64,000 nucleotides of DNA from Cellvibrio sp. 79 (GTDB lineage: Bacteria > Pseudomonadota > Gammaproteobacteria > Pseudomonadales > Cellvibrionaceae). Positions 49,138-64,000 of this stretch are shown here, piece after piece; the stretch's first letter is position 1; every line of letters begins with the position of its first letter. A program made the translations under genes and the position numbers. Location: assembly GCA_003056245.1 (NCBI GenBank), contig MVDH01000001.1, positions 361,028 through 425,027 on the forward strand, read 5' to 3'. Under the pieces are notes generated by a model. The model saw nothing but the letters and a program-made list of their open reading frames with translations, did no database searches and was not told where the DNA came from.

Positions 49138-49194
49138 GGCGCTGCACCTGTTGCTGACATATCGCCATGGTAAAAACTTGTGATGTTCTCCGAA

Positions 49195-49208
49195 TTGATA
49201 TGGATCAA
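49195..49208. promoter_or_regulatory. FNR/Anr box between hemN and the 2OG oxygenase gene
   Basis: TTGATATGGATCAA, a perfect match to the TTGAT-N4-ATCAA consensus. Its centre is about 64 bases from the hemN start and 62 from the divergent oxygenase start. hemN is a known FNR/Anr target. Confidence 0.88.
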
Positions 49209-49263
49209 GCCTATAATGGCCGCCTGGATCGATGATGCGATTTTTTTAACGAAGAAGAATGCT

Positions 49264-49878
49264 ATGTCTTATGCCCGCCCCCTCCTGCATGACAACTATG
49301 ATGAAATTGCCGATGCGCTTGCAGGCCCTGGTTTTATTATTCTGGACGGTGTTTTTCCCCGGCAATTAACGCTGGGGTTGGTCGATCTTATTGCTGAAAG
49401 GGCGCGCCAGCTTAAGCGCGCGGGGATTGGTCGCGAGGGCGATTACCAACTCGATGATTCAGTGCGCGGAGATGCGATCCAATGGCTGGAGTCGGGGCCA
49501 GAGGTTGTCACAGAATTTTTATCTGCCATGGATAAACTGCGGCAGGCATTGAATGAGCGTTTGTATCTCGGTTTATTTGATTATGAAGCTCACTTTGCCA
49601 GCTATGCGCCAGGGGCGTTTTACAAAAAACATCGGGACGCATTTCGGGGAAAATCGGGGCGTAAACTTTCCAGTGTTTTTTATTTGAATCCGGATTGGGA
49701 TTTAGCGGCGGGCGGTGAATTGGTGCTTTATGATGAAGCAGGAGAGCAAGAGTTGGTGCGGGTCGCACCAGAATGCGGCAGGTTAGTATTATTTCTCAGT
49801 GAAGACTTTCCGCATGAGGTGCTGCCAGCGCGGCAATCGCGTCAAAGTATTGCTGGCTGGTTTCGTATCAAGTCATAA
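49264..49878 (+). CDS. 2OG-Fe(II) oxygenase, prolyl-4-hydroxylase-like
   Basis: 204 residues from the ATG at 49264; an upstream frame from 49180 crosses the FNR box and is unlikely. Double-stranded beta-helix oxygenase: iron ligands H123 and D125 (KHRDAF) and H184 (FPHEVLP), 2-oxoglutarate-binding R193. The sequence (LSSVFYLNPDWDLAAGGELVLYD) resembles SM-20/PHD2-type enzymes, including the Pseudomonas prolyl hydroxylase PPHD that modifies elongation factor Tu. EF-Tu is therefore the best-guess substrate, by family only. Divergent from hemN. Confidence 0.85.
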   Translation: MSYARPLLHDNYDEIADALAGPGFIILDGVFPRQLTLGLVDLIAERARQLKRAGIGREGDYQLDDSVRGDAIQWLESGPEVVTEFLSAMDKLRQALNERLYLGLFDYEAHFASYAPGAFYKKHRDAFRGKSGRKLSSVFYLNPDWDLAAGGELVLYDEAGEQELVRVAPECGRLVLFLSEDFPHEVLPARQSRQSIAGWFRIKS

Positions 49879-50174
49879 GGTTTTCGGAATTGAAGGGCGT
49901 ATTGGCCTAATGTCTGATTATTTTTAGGCAATAAATCCTTTGGCTTATTTATAAAAGCGGCCAGATAGTTTTAATAAGCGTGAATGAGTAATTTGAGTTC
50001 GCAGCGAGCCTCTGGCAGTTGGCAATGCTTTTGCAAGAGACTGGGCGTCGCTTGCTGAAATTCTTCCGGGATGGAAGAAACGGAAACCAGGGATGTGTTT
50101 TTCAGCGGGCACTATAACAATGAAAATGCTCAGAGAAACAATAAGCGAGGCCGCGCATGCTTAAGGAAGTCACC

Positions 50175-51629
50175 ATGAGTGAAATGAAAATAGATTGGCA
50201 GGATTATCACTCCGGCCATTTCTATGATGAACTGATTAGTGCGCCCGGCAGACCCCGACCTGAAACCAAACATCTCATCCAATATCTCGCTTCATTGTCA
50301 GGCGAGGAATTGCAAGAACGTAAACTCTCCGCTGAATTAGCCATTAAAACCATGGGCATTTCATTCACGGTTTATAGTGATGCAGGCAATATTGACCGCG
50401 AATGGCCCTTCGATATTATTCCGCGCATTATTCCGCAACGCGAATGGCAAAAAACCGAACGCGGATTAATCCAGCGTTTAACTGCTCTGAATTTATTTAT
50501 TAACGATATTTATAACGACCAGAAAATTATTAAAAACAAAGTCGTTCCCGCGTATTTATTTGAAGATTCGGTCAATTTCCGTAAAGAGTGCATGGGCATG
50601 AAGCCCGCGTACGGTGTGTGGTCGCACATTTGCGGCAGCGATTTGATTCGCGATAACCACGGCGAATTTTTTGTGTTGGAAGATAACTTGCGTGTTCCTT
50701 CCGGTGTGTCCTACATGCTGGAAAATCGCAAAGTCACCAAGCGTGTATTTCCCGAGTTATTTGAAAATCACAATATTGTTCCGGTGACGGATTACCCGAA
50801 CCAATTGTTCGATACACTTGCATCGCTTTCGCCGCGCAAATCTGATCGCCCGGAAATTGTTGTGCTTACACCGGGCATTTATAACTCCGCTTATTTTGAA
50901 CATTCCTATCTCGCGCAGCAAATGGGTGTGGAATTGGTAGAAGGTAGTGATTTGGTGGTCGATAGTGATGATTGTGTTTATATGCGCAGCATTGATGGCC
51001 TTAAACGGGTTGATGTTATTTATCGCCGCATTGATGATTTATTTTTGGACCCGGAAATTTTTAATCCGGATTCAGTGCTTGGTGTGCGCGGTTTAATGCG
51101 TGCTTGGCTAAAAGGAAATGTCGCTTTGGCGAATGCGCCGGGTGCCGGTGTTGCGGATGACAAAGTTATCTACACCTATGTGCCGGACATGATCAAATAT
51201 TATTTGGGCGAAGAACCCATTCTTCCCAATGTACCCAGCTATTTGTGCGTAGATAAAAAACAATGCGACCATGTGCTCGCCAACCTCGATAAATTAGTGG
51301 TGAAGCCGGCTAATGAATCCGGTGGTTACGGCATGATTATCGGCCCGCAGGCGAGTAAAAAAGAATTGGAAGAATTTGCGCTGCGCATTAAGGCCAATCC
51401 GCGCAATTATATGGCACAACCATTAATTTCTTTATCTACTGCTCCGATTCTCACCAATGGCAACGCAGAGCCACGCCATATTGATTTGCGTCCTTTTGTA
51501 TTGCAGGGCAAAGAACATTGCGTAACGCCCGGTGGTTTAACTCGCGTTGCCATGCGCAAAGGTTCTTATGTGGTGAACTCATCGCAAGGCGGTGGTAGTA
51601 AAGATACCTGGATTGTGGTGGAGGACTAA
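50175..51629 (+). CDS. Circularly permuted type-2 ATP-grasp protein
   Basis: 484 residues from the ATG at 50175 with AAGGA 8 bases upstream; the ATG at 50157 is less well placed. COG2308-type family. Visible features: WPFDIIPRIIP near residue 80, VLEDNLRVPSGVSYMLENR at about 170-190 (acidic and Asn metal-site residues intact), RIDDLFLDP, and the Gly-rich VVKPANESGGYGMIIGP at about 380 (ATP loop). The C-terminus has RPFVLQGKEHCVTPGGLTRVA. Such enzymes are predicted peptide or amide ligases that work with alpha-E, transglutaminase-like and Anbu proteins; the product is not established. The alpha-E gene follows after 2 bases. Confidence 0.93.
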   Translation: MSEMKIDWQDYHSGHFYDELISAPGRPRPETKHLIQYLASLSGEELQERKLSAELAIKTMGISFTVYSDAGNIDREWPFDIIPRIIPQREWQKTERGLIQRLTALNLFINDIYNDQKIIKNKVVPAYLFEDSVNFRKECMGMKPAYGVWSHICGSDLIRDNHGEFFVLEDNLRVPSGVSYMLENRKVTKRVFPELFENHNIVPVTDYPNQLFDTLASLSPRKSDRPEIVVLTPGIYNSAYFEHSYLAQQMGVELVEGSDLVVDSDDCVYMRSIDGLKRVDVIYRRIDDLFLDPEIFNPDSVLGVRGLMRAWLKGNVALANAPGAGVADDKVIYTYVPDMIKYYLGEEPILPNVPSYLCVDKKQCDHVLANLDKLVVKPANESGGYGMIIGPQASKKELEEFALRIKANPRNYMAQPLISLSTAPILTNGNAEPRHIDLRPFVLQGKEHCVTPGGLTRVAMRKGSYVVNSSQGGGSKDTWIVVED

Positions 51630-51631
51630 TC

Positions 51632-52600
51632 ATGTTGTCCCGTGTTGCAGAACGAATTTATTGGTTGGGCCGCTACATGGAGCGCTGTGAAAATACCGCG
51701 CGCCTGGTCAATGTAAATTCCAATTTGCTGCTGGATTTACCCAGCGGTGTACGGGTAGGTTGGGGCTCGCTGATCGACATCAGCGGCACCGGCAGCTACT
51801 TCAAAAAAGATACCTTAAGTGCAGACGAAAAAACCGTTGTGCATTTTATGTTGGCGGATAAAGAAAATCCTGCTTCATTAATTAATTCACTTAGCTTTGC
51901 ACGTGAAAATTCACGTATCACCCGCGAAATTATGCCGATGGAAGCGTGGGAATTAATTAACGATTTGTATCACTACATTCGCGATCGCGCAGACAAAGTG
52001 ACTTCACGACGCGATCGAAACATTATTTTATTGCACGTTATTAGTAACGTGCAGCAATTTACCGGTTTGCTCGCTGGCTGCATGAGCCATAACAATGCCT
52101 ATGATTTAATTCGCATTGGCCGCAACATCGAACGCGCCGATATGAGTACACGTATTGTCGATGTGGGCTTGGTGAATTTATTACCGCATTTATCCATTGG
52201 CGGCACAGAAGTGTTGGAGCCCTACGATAACATCCTCTGGATGAGCGTGCTGCGCTCTCTTAGTGCATACCAGATGTATCGCCAGCATGTTCGTGACCGT
52301 GTTAATGCCAATGCGGTAGTGTCTTTCCTGCTGCAAAATGAAGATTTTCCACGCGCTGTTGCCCACTGTTTAAAGCAGCTGGAGCTGTGTTTATGGGCCC
52401 TGCCGAACAGTGAGAAGGTGTTAGCTGCCATTGTAAATATTCAGCACAAACTGGATGAAGCAAATCTGGACCAGTTATTGCAATCTGGATTACATGAGTA
52501 CATTGATGAACTGCAATTGGAAATTGGAAATCTCCATTTCAAAATTGCTGAAACCTGGTTCCTGCCGATGATAATGGCACAGGAACAAAAGTCGGCCTGA
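51632..52600 (+). CDS. Alpha-E domain protein
   Basis: 322 residues, all helical, starting 2 bases after the ATP-grasp stop, so translationally coupled. COG2307 type: MLSRVAERIYWLGRYMERCENTARLVNVN at the N-terminus and RIGRNIERADMSTRIVDVG in the middle. The domain is nearly always encoded beside or fused to a type-2 ATP-grasp protein and is thought to be its partner; biochemical role unknown. The expected transglutaminase gene is not downstream; a terminator and repeats follow. Confidence 0.93.
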   Translation: MLSRVAERIYWLGRYMERCENTARLVNVNSNLLLDLPSGVRVGWGSLIDISGTGSYFKKDTLSADEKTVVHFMLADKENPASLINSLSFARENSRITREIMPMEAWELINDLYHYIRDRADKVTSRRDRNIILLHVISNVQQFTGLLAGCMSHNNAYDLIRIGRNIERADMSTRIVDVGLVNLLPHLSIGGTEVLEPYDNILWMSVLRSLSAYQMYRQHVRDRVNANAVVSFLLQNEDFPRAVAHCLKQLELCLWALPNSEKVLAAIVNIQHKLDEANLDQLLQSGLHEYIDELQLEIGNLHFKIAETWFLPMIMAQEQKSA

Positions 52601-52666
52601 TTTTCTGATTTAAATGTATCGATGCAAATCGACACAACTTTCTTGCGTGTTGTCTCTCTGAGACCT

Positions 52667-52690
52667 GGCCCGTTGTTCGGGCCTTTTTTT
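52667..52690 (+). terminator. Rho-independent terminator after the ATP-grasp/alpha-E block
   Basis: Arms GGCCCG (52667-52672) and CGGGCC (52678-52683), loop TTGTT, then seven T. Confidence 0.9.
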
Positions 52691-52747
52691 CGCCTCTAAT
52701 TTAAGCCGTGGTTTGTTTGCCAATACAATCTTTTTTTGCGAAGGGAA

Positions 52748-52809
52748 GGGTTCAATAAATTGAACCCCTACGCGCAAACATTTCCGTAGGGGCGCAATTT
52801 ATTGCGCCC
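52748..52809. repeat. REPIN 1 (two facing REP elements)
   Basis: Two 24-base REP units in opposite orientation. The right unit (52786-52809) begins with GTAG followed by arms GGGCGCAAT / ATTGCGCCC around TT. The left unit (52748-52771) is its mirror: arms GGGTTCAAT / ATTGAACCC, then CTAC. CCCCTACG (52765-52772) and CGTAGGGG (52785-52792) can also pair, so two mutually exclusive folds exist. GTAG plus hairpin is the signature of REP elements moved by RAYT transposases. Confidence 0.85.
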
Positions 52810-52876
52810 AATGTTTATCTGCGCATTTGCACATTGATAATAAAAAATCGGATTGGAATTTCGAACGTTGAACCAA

Positions 52877-52998
52877 GGGTTCAATAAAATGAACTCCTAC
52901 ATAATCGGATTGCAGATTGGTAAATTAATGGATTGTTGGATTGTTGGATTGTTGGATTGTTGGATTGTTGGATTGTAGGGGCGCAATTTATTGCGCCC
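52877..52998. repeat. REPIN 2, with an expanded spacer
   Basis: Left REP unit (minus orientation) at 52877-52900 with three changes that weaken its stem; right unit at 52975-52998 identical to the right unit of REPIN 1. The 74-base spacer is much longer than in REPIN 1 (14 bases) and contains the 8-base tandem array. The right unit is followed by seven T and may end transcription of the plus strand. Confidence 0.8.
52930..52977 (+). repeat. Tandem repeat, 8-base unit, six copies
   Basis: GGATTGTT repeated five times without change, then GGATTGTA, running directly into the GTAG of the right REP unit of REPIN 2. Probably a slippage-prone array of variable length. Confidence 0.93.
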
Positions 52999-53030
52999 TT
53001 TTTTTGCCGCGTCATTGAATTTTTTTTGTA

Positions 53031-53846
53031 TTAGGTGTTAGATGGTTTCCTTTTTAATCTCCGCCATAAAAACCTCAATACAAAAAATAGAATTATAAAA
53101 AATACTAACCAGGGCAGAAGATAAGCGGTACTGGTAATCGCACCGGCAATTCCCTCGGCTAAGTTACCTTTGAACTCATCCAGCGCATCACTCACAGGCT
53201 GCCAAAAAGAATTTTCAACGCGACTGGATAAACGAACGTTAATAATGTCCATTTCCACGCGTTGCATTAATACTTTGTTGTTTCCGCTTAAATATTCGAG
53301 TTGCGATTGGGTGTTGGCGATTTCCTGGGATACTTTAATCAGGGATTCGATATCGTCTTTGGCTTGTTTTTGTAGGTCTAGTAAATTTTCCTGATAGGAC
53401 TGCAATAACTTGATGCGTTTTTCGGTATCGAAAATTTGTGTCGAAAGGTCTTCCACGGTGGTGGACTGATTGGTGATTTCGCTCTCGGTGCCGGCGAGTG
53501 CCAGGAATTTTTCTACTCCCGCTGGTGCAACCCTGACTCTGATTTTTCCATAGCTGTAATTACCGGCAGAAAGTTCGGACTCCAGAATCGTACAGTTATT
53601 TTTCCTGTCGTCCGCACAATGATCGGTTAGGGTTTTGTATTTATTGGCGAGTGCTTCTTTTTGGAGTTCTACGCTAAGGTTATGTTCATAGGAGAGGTAA
53701 GGATTGGTTTGTCGCTGGGCAACCAACCCGGTTTTCATCATCGGGCTTGAGCTTTCTGCGGCTTTTTTGTTATCACTGCTTTCGCAGCCGCTTAAGTAGA
53801 GTAGAAGTAGGATATAAGTGAGGCCTGTTGCAATAACCTTGGTCAT
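53031..53846 (-). CDS. DUF4349 lipoprotein
   Basis: 271 residues from the ATG at 53846 (MTKVIATGLTYILLLLYLSGC), chosen because it opens a lipoprotein signal with lipobox LSGC (Cys20) and has TTAGG upstream; the ATG at 53891 adds 15 polar residues. The central DUF4349 region includes a long coiled coil (LSTQIFDTEKRIKLLQSYQENLLDLQKQAKDDIESLIKVSQEIANTQSQLEYL) and the C-terminus a membrane helix (YLLPWLVFFIILFFVLRFLW) and a basic tail. Such proteins may sit in the cell envelope as stress or scaffold factors; function unknown. The gene is flanked on both sides by REPINs and is oriented opposite to the ATP-grasp block. Confidence 0.85.
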   Translation of the reverse strand: MTKVIATGLTYILLLLYLSGCESSDNKKAAESSSPMMKTGLVAQRQTNPYLSYEHNLSVELQKEALANKYKTLTDHCADDRKNNCTILESELSAGNYSYGKIRVRVAPAGVEKFLALAGTESEITNQSTTVEDLSTQIFDTEKRIKLLQSYQENLLDLQKQAKDDIESLIKVSQEIANTQSQLEYLSGNNKVLMQRVEMDIINVRLSSRVENSFWQPVSDALDEFKGNLAEGIAGAITSTAYLLPWLVFFIILFFVLRFLWRRLKRKPSNT

Positions 53847-53971
53847 AGTAGAACCTAATCCGTTGTTGGTTTCTGTGTTTAATACATTCATGGTAAATGT
53901 ATTGCACTTAATAATAGTGCGACTGGCTTTACTCTTCCTGAACAGAATTTATGGTTAGGTTTGTAGATCAA

Positions 53972-54034
53972 GGGTTCAATAAATTGAACCCCTACGGTGG
54001 AATTATTTCCGTAGGGGCGCAATTCATTGCGCCC
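53972..54034. repeat. REPIN 3
   Basis: Left REP unit at 53972-53995 (arms GGGTTCAAT / ATTGAACCC plus CTAC) identical to REPIN 1; right unit at 54011-54034 begins GTAG with arms GGGCGCAAT / ATTGCGCCC and a TC loop. The 15-base spacer is related in sequence (TTTCC before GTAG) to that of REPIN 1. Confidence 0.85.
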
Positions 54035-54058
54035 AATAATCACCGCGCAAATGTTCCC

Positions 54059-54082
54059 GCAGGAGGGCAATTCATTGCGCCC
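54059..54082 (+). repeat. Degenerate REP element
   Basis: 24-base unit with GCAG in place of GTAG and a damaged left arm (GAGGGCAAT) but an intact right arm ATTGCGCCC. Same orientation as the right unit of REPIN 3; ends 20 bases from the flavin reductase stop. Confidence 0.6.
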
Positions 54083-54101
54083 TGTATATTTTGAATACGT
54101 T

Positions 54102-54677
54102 TTATTTTTCTTCCGAATAACGACTTGATGTTCTGAACGATTCCCCGGTCATATAAAATTCCCCGCCCGCCATATAATGAATGCTGCGTTTTTGCGGGTC
54201 GTCGGAAAAATTCCAGCGGCCGTTCAGGAATTGTTCGGCATCCGCATAAGCCGCAACTACTTCGCCGACAATTGGGTCCATTTCTTCTGCGCCTTGTTTG
54301 ATAACCTTACACTCTAGCCAGCCAATGCAATCTTCAATAAAGGGTGCGGCGATTTTTGAAGCGGGAAATGTACTGATATTAAAACGGGAAAATTTATCGA
54401 CATCGCGACCGGATAGGTCACCGACATCCAATGTGACTTTTGCGATTTTACGCATCGGGAATTGCAAACCAAATTCACCACTGGCATTAACCAGCTCGCG
54501 TGTGTAAGTGTTTTTATCGATAACGACAGCAACGCGCGCGGGTGAAAAATCCAGCGGCATTGTCCAGGCAGCGGCCATGATGTTACGTTTATTGCCATGG
54601 GCGCTGGTGATAATACTGACCGGACCATGGTTGAATAATTTGTAACTGTCTTTTAATGGAATGGATGTGTGTGCCAT
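54102..54677 (-). CDS. Flavin reductase-like (FMN-binding split barrel) protein
   Basis: 191 residues from the ATG at 54677, one base after the stop of the upstream outer-membrane protein gene, so coupled to it. Flavin_reduct domain: PVSIITSAHGNKRNIMAAAWTMPLDFSPARVAVVIDKNTYTRELVNASGEFGLQFP is the FMN-binding half. Family members reduce flavins with NAD(P)H or use bound FMN for other redox work. Cytoplasmic. Substrate not predictable; pairing with an outer-membrane protein is unusual. Confidence 0.85.
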   Translation of the reverse strand: MAHTSIPLKDSYKLFNHGPVSIITSAHGNKRNIMAAAWTMPLDFSPARVAVVIDKNTYTRELVNASGEFGLQFPMRKIAKVTLDVGDLSGRDVDKFSRFNISTFPASKIAAPFIEDCIGWLECKVIKQGAEEMDPIVGEVVAAYADAEQFLNGRWNFSDDPQKRSIHYMAGGEFYMTGESFRTSSRYSEEK

Positions 54678-54678
54678 A

Positions 54679-55236
54679 TTAAAACGCGACTCCACTGCTA
54701 ATGTAAAAAGTCCATGAAGAGGCTTTGCTCTCGCGGAATTCACCAAAATGCTGGAAGTCTACACCCGCACCCAGCATTAAATGTTCAAACGGTTTAATAC
54801 CTATTTCGGCGCTGGCTTCAAACATATCCTCTTCGGTTTCAACACCATTATTAAATGTGAAGGTGCCGCGCCCCAAACCGATGCCACCCATCAGGTAGGC
54901 GTTATAGGGGCTATCAATTGCATCGTAATTAATACCCGCCAACCCTATGGCAAAGGTTTTTACATCCACCTCTCCAGTGCCTGTCGTTTTATCATCAAGA
55001 TCGGCATTGCTTCGTTGATGGGATAAGTAGACCGGGCCAATCAGTACGCGCCCACTGTTACTGTTATTAAAGGTCATCTCGTATTGTCTGAAGTTATCGT
55101 CGGTTTCAAATTCATCCTCGTCTGCGTCTATTCCTCCCCAAGGTGAATATTTCACTTGCACTACTACAGGCAAATCCAGCGCAGACACTGTGGTGCTGCC
55201 GAAGGCAATGAATAACGCGAAGAAAATGGATTTCAT
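54679..55236 (-). CDS. Outer-membrane beta-barrel protein
   Basis: 185 residues with AAGGAAAA ribosome binding site. Signal peptide 1-19 (FGSTTVSA-L). The mature part alternates strands and acidic turns (DADEDEFETDDN, DLDDKTTGTGEVD) and ends in a typical last strand SSWTFYISSGVAF with C-terminal Phe, the BAM recognition signal. Probably an 8-strand barrel of OmpW/OmpX style; ligand unknown. First gene of a pair with the flavin reductase. Confidence 0.75.
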   Translation of the reverse strand: MKSIFFALFIAFGSTTVSALDLPVVVQVKYSPWGGIDADEDEFETDDNFRQYEMTFNNSNSGRVLIGPVYLSHQRSNADLDDKTTGTGEVDVKTFAIGLAGINYDAIDSPYNAYLMGGIGLGRGTFTFNNGVETEEDMFEASAEIGIKPFEHLMLGAGVDFQHFGEFRESKASSWTFYISSGVAF

Positions 55237-55391
55237 TATTTTTCCTTGTGTTGAGGTTAACAGCCAATCGATTTCTAACGGGCGCGCAATAGAGAAAATT
55301 AATGGATGGCGAATAGCTTAATGGATATGTGGCGGGCAAGCTACGGCACCTTTCGATTTAACAGCTCAATAAATAATAAGTGGAAGATGCT

Positions 55392-55502
55392 ATGAATTAC
55401 AGCGATGGGAATAACAGTAGCGAAAATAAAGACGGTGCAAACCCAGCGGTCAAACACATTGTTGTTGCTTATTTAACGCCGTTTTTTTTGTTGCTTGTTT
55501 GA
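55392..55502 (+). CDS. Possible 36-residue membrane peptide
   Basis: ATG at 55392 with GGAAG 6 bases upstream, then 36 codons: a polar N-terminus (MNYSDGNNSSENKDGANPA) and a hydrophobic C-terminus (HIVVAYLTPFFLLLV). It lies on the plus strand in the 296-base gap between two minus-strand genes. A short open frame with a good start site can arise by chance; conservation is untested. Confidence 0.22.
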   Translation: MNYSDGNNSSENKDGANPAVKHIVVAYLTPFFLLLV

Positions 55503-55532
55503 AAGTTGGTTATCAAGATCCGCAGCACTTTT

Positions 55533-56435
55533 TCAGAGCCCGAAGATGTCATTCTCTTCCACGCGTTGTACATCTACCGATACCAGCAATTGTGGTGAAT
55601 GGCCGCCGCCAAAAATTACGCCTTTTAATGGTGTTACATCGGAATAATCACGGCCCCAGGCGGTGGTGATATGTTGCGCGCTGGTGAGTGTATTATTGGT
55701 AGGGTCAAATTCATACCAGCCTTCGCCCGGTGAATAAACGGCGAACCATGCGTGGGTTGCGTCGGCCCCAATTAATTTTTTCTCTCCTGGCGGTGGCAAG
55801 GTCTCCAGATAACCACTGACATAACGCGCCGGGTAACCGAGTGAACGTAAGCAACCAATGGCGAGGTGCGCAAAATCCTGGCACACGCCGCGTTTGTGTT
55901 TCAATACATCAGCGAGTGGTGTAGCCACATCGGAAAATTGTGGGTCATAAGTAAAATCTTTATAAATCCGTTGCGTTAAATCCATAACGGCTGATAAAAA
56001 CGGGCGGTCATCACTAAAGCTGGATGACGCGTAATCGGCCAGGTCCGGGTGTTGCTGCACCATGGGGGAATCGAGCATAAATTCGCGTGCGCAAATAGTT
56101 TCCCAATCTTTATTGTTTTTCAGTAAATATTTTACGTAAGCGCAAGGCGTACCAAAATCCAGATTGATATTGCCGCCGGTTTCCTTGATGTTGATATCGC
56201 TAATAATGGTTACATCCAGTTCGCTGTGATCTTTTTCAATTGCAAATTGCAAAAAACGGTTACCGAAATAATCCTGGTGTTGCGCCTGGCTTGATACGGC
56301 GGGCGATAATTTAATTTCTGTATGTTCAACTTTTTGTCGTTCAGTTGTGCGTGGCAATACGTAGGCGAGGTTGTAACAATGACTTACCGGTAAGGAATAT
56401 TGATAGCGTGTGGTATGGCGAATGCGGTATTTCAT
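55533..56435 (-). CDS. Transglutaminase-like cysteine peptidase
   Basis: 300 residues. N-terminal beta-sandwich (bacterial transglutaminase-like N, MKYRIRHTTRYQYSLPVSHCYNLAYVLPR) at about 1-150, then the catalytic core with C185 (RGVCQDFAH), H228 (THAWFAVY) and D244 (FDPTNN). Predicted to cut or cross-link peptide bonds; in this genomic context it is the expected partner of the ATP-grasp/alpha-E ligase. Cytoplasmic, no signal peptide. Its start overlaps the stop of the fused ATP-grasp gene by 4 bases. Confidence 0.93.
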   Translation of the reverse strand: MKYRIRHTTRYQYSLPVSHCYNLAYVLPRTTERQKVEHTEIKLSPAVSSQAQHQDYFGNRFLQFAIEKDHSELDVTIISDINIKETGGNINLDFGTPCAYVKYLLKNNKDWETICAREFMLDSPMVQQHPDLADYASSSFSDDRPFLSAVMDLTQRIYKDFTYDPQFSDVATPLADVLKHKRGVCQDFAHLAIGCLRSLGYPARYVSGYLETLPPPGEKKLIGADATHAWFAVYSPGEGWYEFDPTNNTLTSAQHITTAWGRDYSDVTPLKGVIFGGGHSPQLLVSVDVQRVEENDIFGL

Positions 56436-58981
56436 AGTTGGTCCTGCCAGTCAGTATTTTTTACTAGCAGTTGTGGACCTTCAGCGTGATCGAAGTAGCG
56501 CTGACCTACAGTTTTTGCCGCATTGGTAATCAGGTATTGCAAGCGTGATAGGAGTTGATCCAGCTCCGTGCGAATACCGGTTTCCGCTTTGGCGAGTTGT
56601 TTAACATCACTCAACTTCAAGGCGGTAGTGGCTTCCAAAAGAAACTTATGTTCAGCACTAAATGTTTCGCGGTCATCCGGTAATTCCGCAAAATGTTTTT
56701 CCAGCTGGCTGAGTTGATAAATCAGTGAGCGCGGGTTTTTAGGATTGAGCATAATCATTTCCAACCCTTGCTCAATGCGAATTCCGTTTTGGTAGCGACG
56801 ACGATACGGAATTAATGCTTCACCACACATCAGGCTGGATTCAATTAAAATTTCCTGCTCTATTTCATCAAAGCGTGCGCAGAGTAATGAACGTAAGCTG
56901 GAAATAATTTGCAGCGCCCGCTCAAGCCGACGGCCCATTTCCATAAAATGCCAACCGTTACCACGCGTCATGCTTTCATGGACCAATCCGGCAAACGCGA
57001 GCAGGGTAGTAATCATCGGCGCGAGCGCGTCTTCCAATGCTGACAAGGACGCCGGTTCAAGTGAGTTTTTGAGTTGTGCCAACTCATCGCCAATATCGTT
57101 GATAACACGTTGGGTATCGCTGGAAAGTTGCTCTTTGACTTGTTCGGCCGAGTTAATCATCGCGGTTAAATTATTCGCAACACTGCCCACGCGGTTAGGG
57201 TCGAGAATAATTGCAATCATTTCCGGCTCGGGGTTTTTCAGCAAAGCCGGTTGCAAGCTGGTGAAGCCGGGGTAGGTAGATGTCACGTGAGTGACCGCGC
57301 ACAGTAACGCGCGTTCTACTGCATCGGGTAATTTTTCGGTTTTGTTGGTTTGGATAAAAACGGTACGCAACAAACGCAATGCGGATTCCGCACGCTCGGC
57401 GTAGCGGCCAATCCAGAATAAATTTTCTACTACGCGGCTGGGTAATTCGCTGCTGCTTTCCTGTGTGGGTTGTACATCCACCGGGCGCAAACTGATTTGT
57501 TTTTCCGGCTCTGATGCGAGCACCCAGGTATCTTTGGAAACAGAACCGCGCTGGTTGGAAATAATTTTTTTGCCGGTATCCAGATTCACGCGCGTGAGTC
57601 CGCCCGGCATTACCGCATAAGAACTTTCGCTCGCTACCGCAAATGTGCGCAGCACCGATGCACGCGGTAAAATTTTTCCCTGGTGCCAGGTGGGCGTGTG
57701 CGCACCGGCAACATATTCCTGCGCCGCAAATTGATAGGGGTTTTTGCGGATGCGATTTTGCCAGGCTTGCAGTTTGGTATCGTCCAGATCTGCGCCATAG
57801 GCTTCATATAAACCGGGGCGGCGATAAGTGGGTTTGATAATTAACTCTTTTAAATTTGCACACACATAGTCAAGGTCATCCGGATTACCGCACCACCAAC
57901 TTTTTACAGAAGGTAATTGCAACTCGCGGCCAAACAACGCGCGCGATATCGCTGGTAGATAACGCAACAGCGCCGGGTTTTCCAATACACTGGAGCCGAG
58001 CGGGTTGGCGATTGCCACGCGACCCATGCGCGCGACTTCCAGTAAACCGGGAACACCCAAACGCGAATCACCTTTTAGTTCTACGGGATCGCAATACACA
58101 TCGTCAACGCGACGCAGGATTACATCTACGCGTTTTAATCCATCCAGCGCTTTCATCCACACATAACCATTGCGCACACTTAAATCGCTGCCTTGCACCA
58201 ATTGGAAACCCAAATAGTTGGCGAGATACGCATGTTCAAAATATGCTTCGTTATAAGTACCGGGTGTGAGGACTACGATGCGCGCGATGCCGCCGTTGGG
58301 ATTTAATTCGTGTAAACGCTGACGCAAGCGCGCAAAAAATAATGAGAGGCGATGAACATGGCTATCGCGAAATAAACTGGGAAACACACGGTTCATGACT
58401 GTGCGATTTTCCAACGCATAACCTGCACCGGATGGCGCCTGGGTACGATCTGCCATTACACGCATATGGCCATCGGGTGCGCGCACTAGATCCACACCGT
58501 GCAAAATTAATTGATGGGTGCCGGGTAATTTCACCCCGTGGCACGGGCGCAAAAAACCTTGATGGGAAAATAATAATTCCGGGGGAATAACGCCCTGGCG
58601 AATTAATTTGCGCTCGCCGTAAATATCCTGCAGCAACACATTAAATAATTCGGCGCGCTCAATCAAACCGGTTTCAATCTGGTTCCATTCATCACTATTA
58701 ATTAGTAACGGAATCGGATTAAGTTGCCAGCTTTGGTTTGCATCCGGCTCATCGTAAATTTTGTAGGTTGCACCATCATCGCGCAAAATGCGGCGCGCTT
58801 TTTTCTGGCGTTGTTCAATAGTGTCTTGCCCTAATGCTTCCAGGCTATGTAATAAATATCGCCAGTAGGGGCGAATTTTCCCTTCTGCGTCGTAGGCTTC
58901 ATCTACCCCTTGTTGTGGTGAGGGGTAGTTAAAAGCCCCCTGGCTGGTATTGACTGTGTTTTCCATAAGTGTGGAATTCAT
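56432..58981 (-). CDS. Fused circularly permuted ATP-grasp/alpha-E protein
   Basis: 849 residues: type-2 ATP-grasp at about 30-505 joined by a short linker to alpha-E at about 520-835 (LPSRVVENLFWIGRYAERAESALRLLRTVF). It is a paralogue of the two plus-strand genes at 50175 and 51632, here as one chain. Compared with that paralogue the acidic EDN triad is replaced (MADRTQAPSGAGYALENR for LEDNLRVPSGVSYMLENR), and the Gly-rich loop is changed (IIKPTYRRPGLYEAYGAD for VVKPANESGGYG). This is a known subfamily difference and suggests altered substrate or nucleotide chemistry. Middle of the minus-strand cluster. Confidence 0.93.
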   Translation of the reverse strand: MNSTLMENTVNTSQGAFNYPSPQQGVDEAYDAEGKIRPYWRYLLHSLEALGQDTIEQRQKKARRILRDDGATYKIYDEPDANQSWQLNPIPLLINSDEWNQIETGLIERAELFNVLLQDIYGERKLIRQGVIPPELLFSHQGFLRPCHGVKLPGTHQLILHGVDLVRAPDGHMRVMADRTQAPSGAGYALENRTVMNRVFPSLFRDSHVHRLSLFFARLRQRLHELNPNGGIARIVVLTPGTYNEAYFEHAYLANYLGFQLVQGSDLSVRNGYVWMKALDGLKRVDVILRRVDDVYCDPVELKGDSRLGVPGLLEVARMGRVAIANPLGSSVLENPALLRYLPAISRALFGRELQLPSVKSWWCGNPDDLDYVCANLKELIIKPTYRRPGLYEAYGADLDDTKLQAWQNRIRKNPYQFAAQEYVAGAHTPTWHQGKILPRASVLRTFAVASESSYAVMPGGLTRVNLDTGKKIISNQRGSVSKDTWVLASEPEKQISLRPVDVQPTQESSSELPSRVVENLFWIGRYAERAESALRLLRTVFIQTNKTEKLPDAVERALLCAVTHVTSTYPGFTSLQPALLKNPEPEMIAIILDPNRVGSVANNLTAMINSAEQVKEQLSSDTQRVINDIGDELAQLKNSLEPASLSALEDALAPMITTLLAFAGLVHESMTRGNGWHFMEMGRRLERALQIISSLRSLLCARFDEIEQEILIESSLMCGEALIPYRRRYQNGIRIEQGLEMIMLNPKNPRSLIYQLSQLEKHFAELPDDRETFSAEHKFLLEATTALKLSDVKQLAKAETGIRTELDQLLSRLQYLITNAAKTVGQRYFDHAEGPQLLVKNTDWQDQL

Positions 58982-59123
58982 TGCGCTTATTCAGTAGGTT
59001 TTTGTATGGGGCATTTGTTGTTATCGTTGATTGTAACGCGCTTTGCCGGGTTTGCCCCGCTGACAACGCGCCACAAGCTACACAGCGTGCAACGTGTGAC
59101 CGTGCGAATGCGCGAAGGGTTCA

Positions 59124-62100
59124 TTAACGGCGCAAATCGAGTGTGTGCGGATATTCATCCGCCGGTTCTTCCGCTGGCGGAGCCATGGGGCGCGGTGGGT
59201 GTTTATGCTCAAAGAATTCGCGCAAAATTTTCCCGGCGGGTGTGATTGGTAATGCGCCGGGTGTGTGGTTGATATCAAAGAAGCGATTGCCGCGCCGCGA
59301 TTCCGCTTCATTTGCATTGACCGGGAAGCGGTCATAGTTGCGCCCGCCCGGATGGCTGACGTGATAACTGCAACCGCCGATACTTTTGCCGTTCCAGGTA
59401 TCAATCAAATCAAATGTCAGTGGTGAATGAATTCCAATTGTGGGATGTAATGCCGAAGGCGGTTGCCAAGCGCGATAACGCACCCCACCCACAAATTCAC
59501 CCTGCTTTCCCGTTGGGTTCAAACACACGCGGCGGCCATTACACGCGAGTACATAGCGACCCGGTGTCAGGCCAGTCACTTTGACCTGCAATCGTTCTAC
59601 GGATGAATCCACATAGCGCGAGGTACCAAAGCTGCTGACTTCCTCGCCTAATACATGCCAGGGCTCAATCGCCCAGCGCAATTCAATTTGAATATCATCC
59701 AACTGCACACGACCATAATGCGGGAAACGAAATTCTTCAAAGGCAGCGAGCCACTCAAGCTGGAATGGATAACCATTTTGATTTAAATCGTTTACCACAT
59801 CGCGCAAATCTTCCCATACATAGTGTGGCAGCATAAATTTATCGTGCAATAACGTTCCCCAGCGCACGAGCGGTTGGCGATAAGGATTTTTCCAGAAGCG
59901 ACTGATCAAACAGCGCAACAATAAAATTTGCACCAGCGACATGCGCGCATGCGGCGGCATTTCAAAACCGCGAAACTCCAAAATGCCCTGGCGCCCGCTG
60001 GCACTGCCCGGCGAATATAATTTATCGATACAAAATTCGGAGCGATGAGTGTTGCCGGTAATGTCGGTTAATAAATTGCGCATTAACCTGTCGACTAGCC
60101 AGGGTTGTTCAACAATTCCTTCCGGCATTTGTTTGAAAGCAATTTCCAGCTCGTAGAGCATTTCATCGCGGCCTTCATCCACGCGCGGTGATTGACTCGT
60201 TGGCCCAATAAATAATCCGGAAAATAAATACGAGAGGCCGGGATGGTGTTGCCAATAAGTGACAAGGCTGCGCAATAAATCTGGGCGCCGCAAAAACGGA
60301 CTGTTTGCGGGTGTCGATCCACCAAAGGTAACGTGGTTGCCACCGCCGGTACCGGAGTGACGGCCATCGAGCATAAATTTTTCGGTGCCCAAACGGCATT
60401 GTCGTGCATCTTCGTAAAGTGCTTCGGTATTTTTTACCAGATCATTCCAGGTTTCTACCGGGTGGATATTCACTTCAATCACGCCGGGATCGGGCGTAAT
60501 TAAAAATTTCTTCATTCGATGATCTTTGGGCGGCTCATAACCTTCAATGATTACCGGAATTCCCAACGCTGATGCAGTGTCTTCAATTGCTTCAACCAAG
60601 GCAACATAGTGCTCAAGGTAGGCTAGCGGCGGCATAAATAAATGCATGCGACCTTCGCGGACCTCAAAACAGATTGCCGTGCGAATAACATAGCCGTCTT
60701 CGATGTATGATTTTTTCGACGCGGCTTGCGTGACTTTAGGTTGTGCAGTTGTAGCCGATGATGGCGATTTTTTTTCTGCAATTAATTGCGTGTACTGTTT
60801 ACCGCTGAGTGCCAATGGTTCGCGTTCTTCCAGCGGATCATTTTCCGGCTGGTAACGTTCATAGTCATGTTCGGGGAATTCGAGCGAATTTAATGGCAAG
60901 CGTAAACCGAGCGGTGAATCGCCGGGAATTAATAACAAGTTATCCGCACGTAATTTCCAGCGTCCGGTAAGCCAGTTTTGCTGGGAATAATTCCATTCAA
61001 TCGGTAATACGTAGCCGGATTCCGTGTTTAATCCGCGCGCTAATAATCTGGCGATGCGCCGCCGTTCCAAATCATCTTTTAAATCTGCTTTGAGTGGATC
61101 TATATCGGCCGGTAATTTTTGTTCAGCCCATAGGTAATAAAGCGTGTCTTCATACGCGGGAATAATATGTTCGCTATTCACCTGGAGTTTGTCGCAGAGT
61201 GTTTGTGCGAATTTTTTAGCATCGAGGTGCGTTAAGCCATAATCTTTATCCACGCGTGCGAGCAATGCCGGGTTGCGCCACAAATCCTGGCCGTCGGTAC
61301 GCCAGAAGCAACCCAGAGCCCAGCGCGGCACTTCTTCGCCCGGGTACCATTTGCCCTGCCCGTAATGCAATAAACCATTGGCGGCGAAAGTACTGCGCAT
61401 ACGCAGTAATAAATCTTTGGCAAGACGCAATTTATCTGCACCCAATGCACCGGTGTTCCATTGTTCGGATTCCATATCATCGATGGAAACAAACGTGGGC
61501 TCGCCACCGGTGGTGAGGCGTACATCCTGCTCAATTAATTCTTTATCGATCACTGCGCCCAATGCATTGATCGTCGCCCATTGTTCTTCGGTGTAAGGTT
61601 TGGTTACGCGCGGATCTTCAAGGATACGAAACACTTCATTGCTGTAACTGAATTCGACTTCGCATTTACTGGTTGCACCGGTGATGGGCGCGGCGGAAAT
61701 CGGATCGGGTGTGCAGGCGAGGGGAATATGGCCTTCGCTCGTTAATAAACCGGAGGTTGGATCAAGGCCAACCCAGCCCGCACCGGGGATAAAAATTTCT
61801 GTCCACGCATGTAAATCCGTGAAATCTTTTTCCGGGCCGCTGGGGCCGTCGAGTGCTTTTACATCTGCCGTTAGTTGCACTAAATATCCCGATGCAAAAC
61901 GCGCGGCATAACCGAGGTGGCGAAAAATTTGTACTAGCAACCAGGCGCTGTCGCGGCAGGAACCTTTGGCGAGTGTTAAGGTTTCTTCGCAGGTTTGTAT
62001 GCCCGGTTCAAGGCGTACACCGTAACCAATATCCTGTTGTAATTGTTGGTTGATGGTCACCATAAAATCGTTGATGTGCCATGGCTTTTCAGTCACCTGA

Positions 62101-62519
62101 CGATGGCGAATTTCAGTTTTGATTTTATTAACCAGTTTGCTCAGCAGTGGTCCCGCTTCATTAATTTCCAGGTAGGGTAGTAATTCGCGTTTTAATTGCG
62201 GGTCGTATTCAAAGGGAACATGTTCCGCATAATCTTCCACAAAAAAATCGAAGGGATTGATGGAGGTCATTTCCGCAATCACTTCCACTTCAATTGTTAA
62301 ATGCTTGCACTGCTCGGGGAAAACCAGGCGCGCCTGGAAATTACCGAACGGATCTTGTTGCCAGTTAATAAAATGTTCGGGTTCAATTTTTAACGAATAG
62401 CTATGGATTTTGGTACGGCTGTGTGGCGCCGGGCGCAGGCGTAACACGTGAGGAAAAAGATTGGTCAGACGATCAAAGTGGTATTCAGTCTTATGGTGAA
62501 TGGCAACGCGAATAGCCAT
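59124..62519 (-). CDS. Transglutaminase-DUF2126 protein
   Basis: 1131 residues from the ATG at 62519, preceded by GGAAGGAAA; the frame opens 25 codons earlier without such a site. An N-terminal transglutaminase-like unit at about 1-290 has C188 (GSCRDSAW), H237 (DLHAW) and D253 (LDPTSG). Then DUF2126 (COG4196) at about 330-1125, starting TTGGEPTFVSIDDM and including a glutamine-synthetase-like segment (GTGGGNHVTFGGSTPANSPFLRRPDLL). That part is thought to be a second amide ligase. The protein thus combines a predicted peptide-cleaving and a predicted peptide-forming activity. Ends with a Pro-rich tail (APPAEEPADEYPHTLDLRR). First gene of the cluster after parDE. Confidence 0.93.
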   Translation of the reverse strand: MAIRVAIHHKTEYHFDRLTNLFPHVLRLRPAPHSRTKIHSYSLKIEPEHFINWQQDPFGNFQARLVFPEQCKHLTIEVEVIAEMTSINPFDFFVEDYAEHVPFEYDPQLKRELLPYLEINEAGPLLSKLVNKIKTEIRHRQVTEKPWHINDFMVTINQQLQQDIGYGVRLEPGIQTCEETLTLAKGSCRDSAWLLVQIFRHLGYAARFASGYLVQLTADVKALDGPSGPEKDFTDLHAWTEIFIPGAGWVGLDPTSGLLTSEGHIPLACTPDPISAAPITGATSKCEVEFSYSNEVFRILEDPRVTKPYTEEQWATINALGAVIDKELIEQDVRLTTGGEPTFVSIDDMESEQWNTGALGADKLRLAKDLLLRMRSTFAANGLLHYGQGKWYPGEEVPRWALGCFWRTDGQDLWRNPALLARVDKDYGLTHLDAKKFAQTLCDKLQVNSEHIIPAYEDTLYYLWAEQKLPADIDPLKADLKDDLERRRIARLLARGLNTESGYVLPIEWNYSQQNWLTGRWKLRADNLLLIPGDSPLGLRLPLNSLEFPEHDYERYQPENDPLEEREPLALSGKQYTQLIAEKKSPSSATTAQPKVTQAASKKSYIEDGYVIRTAICFEVREGRMHLFMPPLAYLEHYVALVEAIEDTASALGIPVIIEGYEPPKDHRMKKFLITPDPGVIEVNIHPVETWNDLVKNTEALYEDARQCRLGTEKFMLDGRHSGTGGGNHVTFGGSTPANSPFLRRPDLLRSLVTYWQHHPGLSYLFSGLFIGPTSQSPRVDEGRDEMLYELEIAFKQMPEGIVEQPWLVDRLMRNLLTDITGNTHRSEFCIDKLYSPGSASGRQGILEFRGFEMPPHARMSLVQILLLRCLISRFWKNPYRQPLVRWGTLLHDKFMLPHYVWEDLRDVVNDLNQNGYPFQLEWLAAFEEFRFPHYGRVQLDDIQIELRWAIEPWHVLGEEVSSFGTSRYVDSSVERLQVKVTGLTPGRYVLACNGRRVCLNPTGKQGEFVGGVRYRAWQPPSALHPTIGIHSPLTFDLIDTWNGKSIGGCSYHVSHPGGRNYDRFPVNANEAESRRGNRFFDINHTPGALPITPAGKILREFFEHKHPPRPMAPPAEEPADEYPHTLDLRR

Positions 62520-62749
62520 AAAAATTTCCTTCCAATAATCGTGTGTGGACCATGCTGGTGCACCTGGATGTGCATCAGGTTGGGAAAAGGGCAAGTTATT
62601 ATCATCCGCAATCGTTGTGGTGCTGTGACACTCACACTTATTGTGGATTTACTTGCGCGCTTTGTAGCTCGGGTCGCGGCTCAGGATAGGTAAGGCAATA
62701 TTTGCACCATGAGTGCATATGCATTTTTTATTAGAAGTTGCAGCTGATG

Positions 62750-63064
62750 CTAGTTTTCAATTTCGCTTTGCAATACAGAAATATAATCTTGTCCTCCGTA
62801 GAAAATGCCAGTAATTGAAATCTGATCATTATCTACAACGAAGGCAATGACAGTTTGTTTTCGGTAATTGGTGAGACGCAAACCAGGCCTTATTTCGTCA
62901 CGCTTGGTTCCTCGGAGAGGGAAAGTATTGAGGTTTTCACAATAATTGATAATAGAACTGGTGTAATTGAAAGCAATAGTGGATGAGGCCAAATTAGCCA
63001 AATAGTGATAGATAGTTAATAGCTGTTCCTCAGCTTCAGGGGAAAATACAACCTTGTATTTCAT
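62750..63064 (-). CDS. parE: ParE/RelE-superfamily toxin
   Basis: 104 residues. ParE-type fold: MKYKVVFSPEAEEQLLTIYHYLANLASSTIA, then CENLNTFPLRGTKRDEIRPGLRLTNYRKQTVIAFVVDNDQISITGIFYGGQDY. ParE relatives inhibit gyrase; RelE relatives cut mRNA on ribosomes. The end pattern (GIFYGGQDY) fits ParE. Its start overlaps the antitoxin stop by 4 bases, antitoxin first, as in parDE modules. Confidence 0.88.
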   Translation of the reverse strand: MKYKVVFSPEAEEQLLTIYHYLANLASSTIAFNYTSSIINYCENLNTFPLRGTKRDEIRPGLRLTNYRKQTVIAFVVDNDQISITGIFYGGQDYISVLQSEIEN

Positions 63065-63330
63065 TTTGACTTGGCGTGTTCTCCTGCCAGACGTGCTCGT
63101 AGTGAACTCACAGACACTGCACGAGTTGGATCAGCCTTCAGCGCGTCATATGCAGGGCCAACGTGATTGTGTAGCCAATCTTCAATAGCTTTATCGCGCG
63201 CAAGGAGCGCACGTAATCCATCGCGAATAACTTCACTTTCGCTCGCATATTCCCCTGTTTGTACTTTGGCTTTAACTACATCTGCCATTTCATTGGGAAG
63301 CGTGATACTAAGTTGTTGGGTTGTTCGCAT
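63061..63330 (-). CDS. parD: ParD-like antitoxin
   Basis: 89 residues from the ATG at 63330; the longer frame (to 63402) has no ribosome binding site and adds residues foreign to the family. Ribbon-helix-helix DNA-binding N-terminus (TTQQLSITLPNEMADVVKAKVQTGEYASESEVIRDGLRALLARD), then a flexible Arg/Lys-rich end that would wrap the toxin. It should repress its own promoter, which must lie in the 84-base gap downstream of the anbu stop. Confidence 0.88.
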   Translation of the reverse strand: MRTTQQLSITLPNEMADVVKAKVQTGEYASESEVIRDGLRALLARDKAIEDWLHNHVGPAYDALKADPTRAVSVSSLRARLAGEHAKSK

Positions 63331-63414
63331 GGTATGTTTACTCGAACCTGGGCAGGATTTAATCATATTCCTGTAGTTTGATGACGTCCAGATAATGAGC
63401 AACTAATTAATAAA

Positions 63415-64000
63415 TCAATTCTGCGGCGGCGGTGGCAACTGCAAGAAAGCCTGGACTATCTGGTGGTCCCATGACTTGGTGAGGTTGCGCAGGTATTCGT
63501 TGTCGGCAGCGAAGGAGCTGTGTTTCATTATGCCGCTGTCGGTGGCATAAACCATCAATTCAATCGGCGGGCCAACCGTGAGGTTGGAGCGCATGGTGGA
63601 GTCCATGGAGACCAGCGCGCACAGCGATGCAGTTTCCAATGAGGTTTCCGGTTTGAGGATACGGTCGAGAATCGGTTTGCCGTATTTGCTCTCGCCAATT
63701 TGCAGGTAAGGTGTTTGGTCCGAGGTGGTGATGTGATTACCCTGCGGGTAAATCAGGGTAACGGCTGGAGTATCCAACCCGATTTGCCCACCCAATAAAA
63801 AGCTCGCTTCAAAGCTTACGTTGCTATTGTGCTGCGCATGTTTTTCCTGGATGGCGACACTGATTTCGCCCACATAGTCTGCAGCGTCATGGACGCTGCT
63901 CACCGTGGCGAGGCTTACCTCAGCACCGTCTTTTATATCTTTACGGATTTTGGCAATGACTGACTGGGTAGTAGCAAGGTTACCCGCCGAATTGATCACT
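63415..64000 (-). CDS. Anbu proteasome-like protease (5' end outside window)
   Basis: The last 195 codons of a gene running off the right edge; the frame is open to the end. Anbu (ancestral beta-subunit) features: SAGNLATTQSVIAKIR, ASFLLGGQIGLDTPAVTLIYPQGNHI, TPYLQIGESKYGKPILDRIL, and LVSMDSTMRSNLTVGPPIELMVY. The N-terminal catalytic Thr is outside the window. Anbu is a proteasome beta-subunit relative, found as a helical or ring assembly, and is habitually encoded with ATP-grasp, alpha-E and transglutaminase genes, exactly as here. Short Pro-rich tail LPPPPQN. Confidence 0.93.
   Translation of the reverse strand, partial: VINSAGNLATTQSVIAKIRKDIKDGAEVSLATVSSVHDAADYVGEISVAIQEKHAQHNSNVSFEASFLLGGQIGLDTPAVTLIYPQGNHITTSDQTPYLQIGESKYGKPILDRILKPETSLETASLCALVSMDSTMRSNLTVGPPIELMVYATDSGIMKHSSFAADNEYLRNLTKSWDHQIVQAFLQLPPPPQN

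Follow-up and report, generated by a model that had tools for sequence, protein, structure and literature searches.

A bacterial gene set comprising an ATP-grasp ligase, an alpha-E protein, a transglutaminase-like protein and Anbu has been known for years with no product assigned to it (PMC6376114, PMC5666114), and it is a variant of this set, encoded in Cellvibrio sp. 79, that is considered here. The window, by which is meant the whole stretch of 64,000 nucleotides analysed, is positions 361,028-425,027 of the forward strand of contig MVDH01000001.1 in GenBank assembly GCA_003056245.1; coordinates below are window positions, and the nearest relatives bearing a genus name are Cellvibrio. Nitrogen regulation has been reported for related sets. 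The Burkholderia cenocepacia cluster I35_5080-83 (DUF404/407, DUF403, a transglutaminase and a large transglutaminase protein) is down by log2 8.2, 9.4, 9.4 and 6.0, respectively, in an ntrC mutant and was counted as a common target of NtrC and sigma-54 (PMC5491218). With nitrate as compared to ammonium, PP_2685 (Anbu) and PP_2688 (ATP-grasp) of Pseudomonas putida are up by log2 4.44 and 3.99 (PMC8050072); PP_2685-2688 have been ascribed to NtrB/NtrC (PMC7801951), and PP2685-2687 are reported as up under nitrogen limitation (PMC3325844). A proteasome-type protease COG (cluster of orthologous groups) features in predicted sigma-54 regulons (PMC12316311), a Bradyrhizobium CP_ATPgrasp_1 gene has a predicted RpoN site (PMC13207237), and in marine metagenomes DUF403/404/407 and Bact_transglu_N are associated with urea domains (PMC3597751). 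Phosphate release has been reported for the Yersinia ATP-grasp protein (PMC6376114), and a review table includes a metagenome clone active against nematodes that carries a set of ATP-grasp, alpha-E, transglutaminase and protease genes (PMC7764037).

The Cellvibrio locus has two ATP-grasp copies, one standalone and one fused to an alpha-E domain. With a little less than even confidence, we read it as a nitrogen-stress-induced amide (peptide) ligase/hydrolase system in which only the standalone copy is an active ligase and the fused one is a pseudo-ligase. The standalone CP-ATP-grasp gene is at 50175..51629 on the plus strand (PF14403, E 1.8e-167); its open reading frame opens at 50157, but by eye ATG 50175 has the better ribosome site. 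The separate alpha-E gene starts 2 bases downstream (51632..52600, plus strand; PF04168, E 9.6e-88). By sequence the ligase matches 3n6x at E 1.2e-218, and among the best Protein Data Bank (PDB) fold matches of its AlphaFold model (pLDDT 86) are glutathione, glutathionylspermidine (Gss) and trypanothione synthetases. In the last of these, Asp330, Glu344 and Asn346 hold two Mg ions and Lys513 and Lys548 contact ATP phosphates (PMC3581523). Their apparent counterparts in the Cellvibrio protein, E175-x-N177 and K336, are kept in 71 of 72 standalone ligases, the exception being a mis-sorted fused piece. For Escherichia coli Gss we take D318, E330, N332, K498 and K533 to be the ligand positions, the residue letters having been checked. 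Mapped by motif order and fold, the standalone copy has both the glutathione/glutathionylspermidine synthetase-like fold and the E-x-N and lysine residues of an ATP-grasp ligase.

The other copy, at 56432..58981 on the minus strand, is a single 849-aa frame with PF14403 and PF04168 domains. Its model (pLDDT 85.5) keeps the ATP-grasp fold and matches the same synthetases as does the standalone one. What it lacks are the predicted Mg/ATP residues: E175, N177 and K336 each have no counterpart in any of the 76 fused sequences (0/76), the N177 position being R in 72 of them, and the GGYG loop is not conserved. The K383 position is K in 42 of the 76 and R in 31, and six positions (R109, R167, R290, R291, D298 and R445 in the numbering of the fusion) show conservation of 95% or more in fused and standalone kinds alike. 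(The 72 separate and 76 fused sequences are non-identical stretches, some present twice per genome and the window's own included.) In eight Cellvibrio genomes identity to the window is 95-98% for the standalone ligase, 83-94% for the fused ATP-grasp part and 68-88% for the fused alpha-E part.

Does the fusion ever stand alone? A separate alpha-E accompanies it in 13/13 genomes of a class set (166 genomes), in 50/51 of a family set (100 genomes; the exception, G182, is 68% complete) and in 24/24 genomes reached via homologous loci, where 24 of the 31 loci L086-L116 were used and seven left out, and alpha-E, not an adjoining ATP-grasp, was checked. The converse fails, 36 of the 49 class genomes with alpha-E having the separate form alone. 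Given the loss of the Mg/ATP residues from all 76 sequences and this company, the fused second 'ligase' is probably a pseudoenzyme, and with the predicted catalytic residues missing from it a single active ligase, the standalone copy, is predicted rather than two branches. A more specific idea, tentative and in our view possible rather than probable, is that the fusion is an ancient, widespread dead copy, retained only where an intact ligase is present, and that it holds that ligase's substrate or redirects it for the DUF2126 protein; under nitrogen stress one active ligase would then feed two alternative exits, one by way of Anbu and the other by way of DUF2126. Dependence of a pseudo-ligase on an intact paralogue would, if true, be an unusual role for the ATP-grasp fold, and the predicted pseudo-ligase is the part that specialists may not expect; a literature search on inactive ATP-grasps found no paper with such phrases, in a coverage that lacks most subscription journals.

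The transglutaminase-like domains and Anbu look intact by their conserved residues. The transglutaminase-DUF2126 fusion (59124..62519, minus strand; PF08379, PF01841 and PF09899, the last with 1348 bits) is one protein containing a DUF2126 domain of full length (PF09899 spans 2-826 of 826). Its frame opens with TTG 62594, and its likely start is ATG 62519, behind GGAAGG in a conserved start region. The separate transglutaminase-like protein (55533..56435, minus strand; PF08379 and PF01841) has a start that overlaps the stop of the ATP-grasp-alpha-E fusion. By our own Cys-His-Asp assignment, the triads C187 H236 D252 of the former (72 sequences) and C185 H228 D244 of the latter (71 sequences) are at least 95% conserved. 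DUF2126 is a putative amidoligase; a PDB sequence search with the protein gave no match, and a literature search on DUF2126 found no paper, again in a coverage without most subscription journals. Anbu (ancestral beta subunit, a proteasome relative; 63415..64000, minus strand, cut by the window end; the full gene, of 239 aa, extends to about 64134; PF00227) matches solved Anbu homologues, 5loy best (E 5.7e-70). Across 61 sequences conservation is 95% or more for Thr2 (the residue behind Met), Asp18 and Lys33, which correspond to the catalytic Thr1, Asp17 and Lys32/33 of Anbu (PMC6376114).

The distribution of the families is informative about which parts belong together. Alpha-E is in 49 genomes of the class set, Anbu in 43 (41 with alpha-E), DUF2126 in 32 (all 32 with alpha-E) and the fusion in 13, 11 of them with DUF2126. 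The family-set figures are alpha-E 66, Anbu 43, DUF2126 51 and fusion 51, with alpha-E present in 43/43 Anbu genomes and 51/51 DUF2126 genomes, and with fusion and DUF2126 coinciding in 50. Anbu and DUF2126 occur together in 28 family genomes, DUF2126 without Anbu in 23 and Anbu without DUF2126 in 15. With relatedness not taken into account, the positive associations have Fisher p values of 1.2e-2 to 2.5e-28, and among genomes with alpha-E the association of fusion with Anbu is a negative one (p 0.023 for the class set, 6e-4 for the family set). These counts and the gene-order maps show that the families are not independent, yet either of Anbu and DUF2126 can join a shared ATP-grasp/alpha-E pair without the other; the idea that the DUF2126 branch requires Anbu is rejected, with 23 of 51 DUF2126 family genomes lacking it. 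Thus the co-occurrence that the original prediction took as known is strongly borne out, the independent distribution that it named as one refutation was not found, and the gene-order maps it called for show the set to be syntenic in Cellvibrio. Its other refutation, unrelated expression of the blocks, is not borne out to the extent that sequence can show, both blocks having promoter sites of one kind (below). The 'possibly duplicated' system is not supported, the fused ATP-grasp being without predicted catalytic residues. The DUF2126 branch can do without Anbu, and two genomes (below) have the pair and Anbu in a distant operon only.

Several decisions enter the counts. Fused and separate forms were judged by frame length and score, and a weak Anbu match (G091, E 4.8e-4) was excluded before counting. 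G156 (845-aa frame) and G084 (937) were placed with the separate forms, their alpha-E scores being 320 and 302 bits; the G084 map is of the standalone type and G156 is unmapped. In the family set the fused count includes G237 (748-aa frame), G227 (791) and G241 (542, on a short contig) but not G213, which is in fragments. A phylum search, with alpha-E in at least 156 of 299 genomes, was kept out of the fused/separate test.

Within the genus set (13 genomes, the window included) standalone and fused alpha-E are in 13/13, Anbu in 13/13 and DUF2126 in 12/13 (G256 lacks it), and gene order is alike in most mapped Cellvibrio loci. The sisters G216 and G258, whose standalone ligases are 94% identical, differ. 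From these the resident pair and resident Anbu have gone, DUF2126, fusion and transglutaminase have stayed, and a distant four-gene operon supplies ATP-grasp, alpha-E, transglutaminase and Anbu with identities to the window of 54-55% (ligase), 28-29% (alpha-E) and 45-46% (Anbu). In a tree built from half of the separate ligases (36 of 72) that of G258 forms a group with L172 to the exclusion of the others (100/100, bootstrap not settled), and the replacement is probably one event. Other genera have the pair, DUF2126 protein, fusion and transglutaminase in one same-strand run with no adjoining Anbu (L135-L140, L144, L145), or such a run with Anbu in front (L141-L143); in six Anbu-only genomes (L146-L151) the pair and Anbu face each other.

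Sigma-54-type promoter sites stand in front of two of the genes. GG-N10-GC is the textbook sigma-54 spacing. The pattern TGG-N8-TTGC, fixed after the sites were seen, is upstream of the ATP-grasp gene in 11/13 Cellvibrio genomes (13/13 for a relaxed pattern, including the two with the foreign operon) and of the DUF2126 gene in 12/12 genomes having it. A conserved -24/-12 element thus precedes both, as in a sigma-54/NtrC regulon. In the window these sites are TGGCAATGCTTTTGCA (50020..50035, plus strand; 10/11 consensus letters) for block 1, that of the standalone pair, and TGGTGCAAATATTGCC (62694..62709, minus strand; 8/11) for the DUF2126 operon. For nine further genes in the region, Anbu (0/13) among them, the strict pattern was found upstream in no more than one genome each; the background per 300 bases and strand is 0.05 for the strict and 0.11 for the relaxed pattern, which elsewhere was found at an MscS-type gene (1/6), a DUF4349 gene (1/3) and a 2-oxoglutarate (2OG) oxygenase gene (2/9). 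Among spacing controls, N7 gave 3/13 upstream of ATP-grasp, 1/12 of DUF2126 and 2/9 of the 2OG gene, and N9 gave 4/13 upstream of the transglutaminase and 1/13 of Anbu. Spacers between the conserved promoter parts vary among genomes, and rpoN and ntrC genes are present. Anbu has instead a conserved upstream TTGAC...TTAACCT element, sigma-70-like by our reading. With a candidate sigma-54-type site before ATP-grasp and none before Anbu, Cellvibrio matches the behaviour of isolated P. putida promoters, that of PP_2688 responding 3.7-fold to nitrogen limitation and that of PP_2685 being nitrogen-agnostic and tac-like (PMC8050072). TGCAC...GTGCA inverted repeats, conserved in part of the genus, are at 62703-62717, overlapping the second promoter site, and at 62559-62574, near the DUF2126 start. 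The palindrome TGCAC-N5-GTGCA, which overlaps the second site in several genomes, was considered as an NtrC operator and rejected, its spacing differing from that of NtrC sites.

How might such a system work? In a first step, suggested by fold and motif, the standalone ATP-grasp protein with alpha-E would activate a carboxylate with ATP and join it to an amine, as do glutathionylspermidine synthetase and glutathione synthetase. The transglutaminase-DUF2126 fusion may then add or exchange further amide groups on the same substrate, and the papain-fold transglutaminases and, where present, Anbu would cleave the product, so that the amide store, tag or conjugate would be a reversible one. The fused pseudo-ligase, which retains the fold along with a number of conserved arginines and aspartates, could hold substrate for the intact pair or act as its scaffold or regulator. 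Of product types, a reversible amide conjugate made and cut in nitrogen shortage appears most likely by analogy, in view of the fold relation to synthetases that join peptide carboxylates to amines and of the cysteine amidase neighbours.

A number of points weigh against this account. Profile comparison of the ligase with E. coli Gss gave no significant match, and the residue mapping onto solved enzymes goes by model fold and motif order. Plain sigma-54-like matches in the window are not enriched (45 found versus 48 expected with at most two mismatches), and with the comparison confined to 13 related genomes of one genus the promoter claim rests wholly on conservation; no NtrC site was established in these upstream regions. 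In the rpoN mutant of P. putida PP_2686-2688 are up 14-, 16- and 20-fold under nitrogen limitation, as compared to 13-, 11- and 15-fold in the wild type (PMC7801951 Table 2), which speaks against strict sigma-54 dependence there, and PP_2685 is up only 1.1-fold in the wild type (same table). Nitrogen control is thus known for relatives, with sigma-54 dependence disputed by one data set, and for the two-block form in Cellvibrio it is a prediction from sequence. Yersinia bercovieri Anbu is reported to have neither peptidase activity nor specific contact with its operon partners (PMC6376114), and elsewhere a role of Anbu in peptide synthesis was judged less likely than one in protein degradation (PMC5666114). 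Finally, that G216 and G258 exchanged the pair while keeping the fusion argues against a tight specific complex of the two.

What, then, of protein degradation? Anbu could be a proteasome-like peptidase which turns over proteins in nitrogen starvation, with the ligases marking its substrates. Anbu binds proteasome inhibitors and forms an open-ring dodecamer (PMC5666114), is found almost only with alpha-E (41/43 in the class, 43/43 in the family), and in G216/G258 is together with the pair as a unit. Against protein tagging, which is rather unlikely, stand the 23 of 51 DUF2126-bearing family genomes that lack Anbu and the failure to find peptidase activity in the Yersinia protein (PMC6376114). 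It is improbable to a greater degree that the fused ATP-grasp is still an enzyme, by other residues or another donor, and that the locus has two working branches: the arginines and aspartate shared by both kinds, the lysine retained at K383 in 42 of 76 and the occurrence, by record title, of relatives at 33-96% identity in several phyla would suit it, but none of the 76 has either predicted Mg ligand or the first ATP lysine, the GGYG loop is not conserved, and only one examined genome, 68% complete, has the fusion without a separate alpha-E, so that two working branches were rejected on the missing Mg/ATP residues. Most doubtful of all is that descent alone has made the blocks neighbours and that each belongs to a pathway of its own, for although they are far apart or on different contigs in G216, G244 and G258, have other genes between them in the window, and 36 of 49 class alpha-E genomes lack the fusion, the components form a single same-strand run in other genera (L135-L145), the fusion is accompanied by a separate alpha-E, and sigma-54-type sites precede both blocks.

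In layout the locus consists of two convergent blocks within 14 kb. Between them are genes for DUF4349, a flavin reductase and a protein of outer-membrane type that no Pfam family matches. Block 1, on the plus strand, is the ATP-grasp/alpha-E pair, and block 2, on the minus strand, is Anbu, ParD/ParE, the transglutaminase-DUF2126 fusion, the ATP-grasp-alpha-E fusion and the transglutaminase. The original prediction had this two-gene plus-strand block and minus-strand block right, as it did the presence within 14 kb of all the families, which Pfam confirms, while passing over the ParDE genes and the running of Anbu past the window end. Of its two ATP-grasp plus alpha-E pairs the first is indeed separate genes and the second a single fused protein, and of its two transglutaminase-like proteins and DUF2126 one transglutaminase is separate, the other being fused to DUF2126.

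The ParE toxin (62750-63064, minus strand) and ParD antitoxin (63061-63402, minus strand) genes, adjacent and overlapping between Anbu and DUF2126, have the domains (PF05016, PF03693) of a ParDE toxin-antitoxin pair. Among mapped loci the pair is confined to those of the genome that the window comes from (window, L003, L012), the locus map of the 96%-identical relative L074 lacks it, and related pairs are on 109 plasmid records at 60-80% DNA identity; it is rejected as a member of the system, no mapped locus outside the window's own genome having it. A 2OG-Fe(II) oxygenase gene (49180-49878) is upstream of ATP-grasp on the same strand, and is so placed in 10 other Cellvibrio genomes and five Anbu-only relatives. 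Two Anbu genes are present in G084 (L178), G101 and G140; in L178 the two copies flank the ATP-grasp and DUF2126 genes, and one of the two has an internal stop. In L147, an Anbu-only relative, a zinc-ribbon Peptidase_Mx gene (1837-2856) between alpha-E and Anbu overlaps alpha-E; a Peptidase_Mx search of the window's genome gave no match, but nor did it in control genomes.

The Anbu/ATP-grasp/alpha-E system is thus of a known kind, and the two-block form, with its predicted pseudo-ligase and separable exits, is a variant of it. Telling a predicted active ligase from a predicted dead one, and an Anbu exit from a DUF2126 exit, together with promoter sites that hint at the conditions of expression, makes the question of what the system does testable. 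Of the more distant comparisons, E. coli Gss and trypanothione synthetase share with the standalone ligase the ATP-grasp fold and an E-x-N and two lysines in the same order, and have a cysteine amidase as partner. They differ in that Gss has no significant sequence relation to the ligase and that the hydrolases here are separate genes. 3n6x, from Methylobacillus flagellatus, is a close homologue of the standalone ligase, 'putative glutathionylspermidine synthase' being the depositor's label. Judged from its description in PMC5491218, the B. cenocepacia cluster resembles the Cellvibrio locus in having an ATP-grasp, an alpha-E, a transglutaminase and a large transglutaminase protein, which we infer to be of the DUF2126 type, under nitrogen control there; its four genes include neither a fused second ATP-grasp nor Anbu, unlike here. 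With the Anbu operon of Pseudomonas and Yersinia the locus has in common the same four families, CP-ATP-grasp, alpha-E, transglutaminase-like and Anbu, with the Anbu catalytic residues conserved, and what the Cellvibrio sites suggest is likewise the case in P. putida, where the ATP-grasp promoter is nitrogen-responsive and the Anbu promoter is not. That operon is one run of four genes in conserved order, whereas in Cellvibrio there are two convergent blocks, to which the DUF2126 fusion and the pseudo-ligase fusion are additions.

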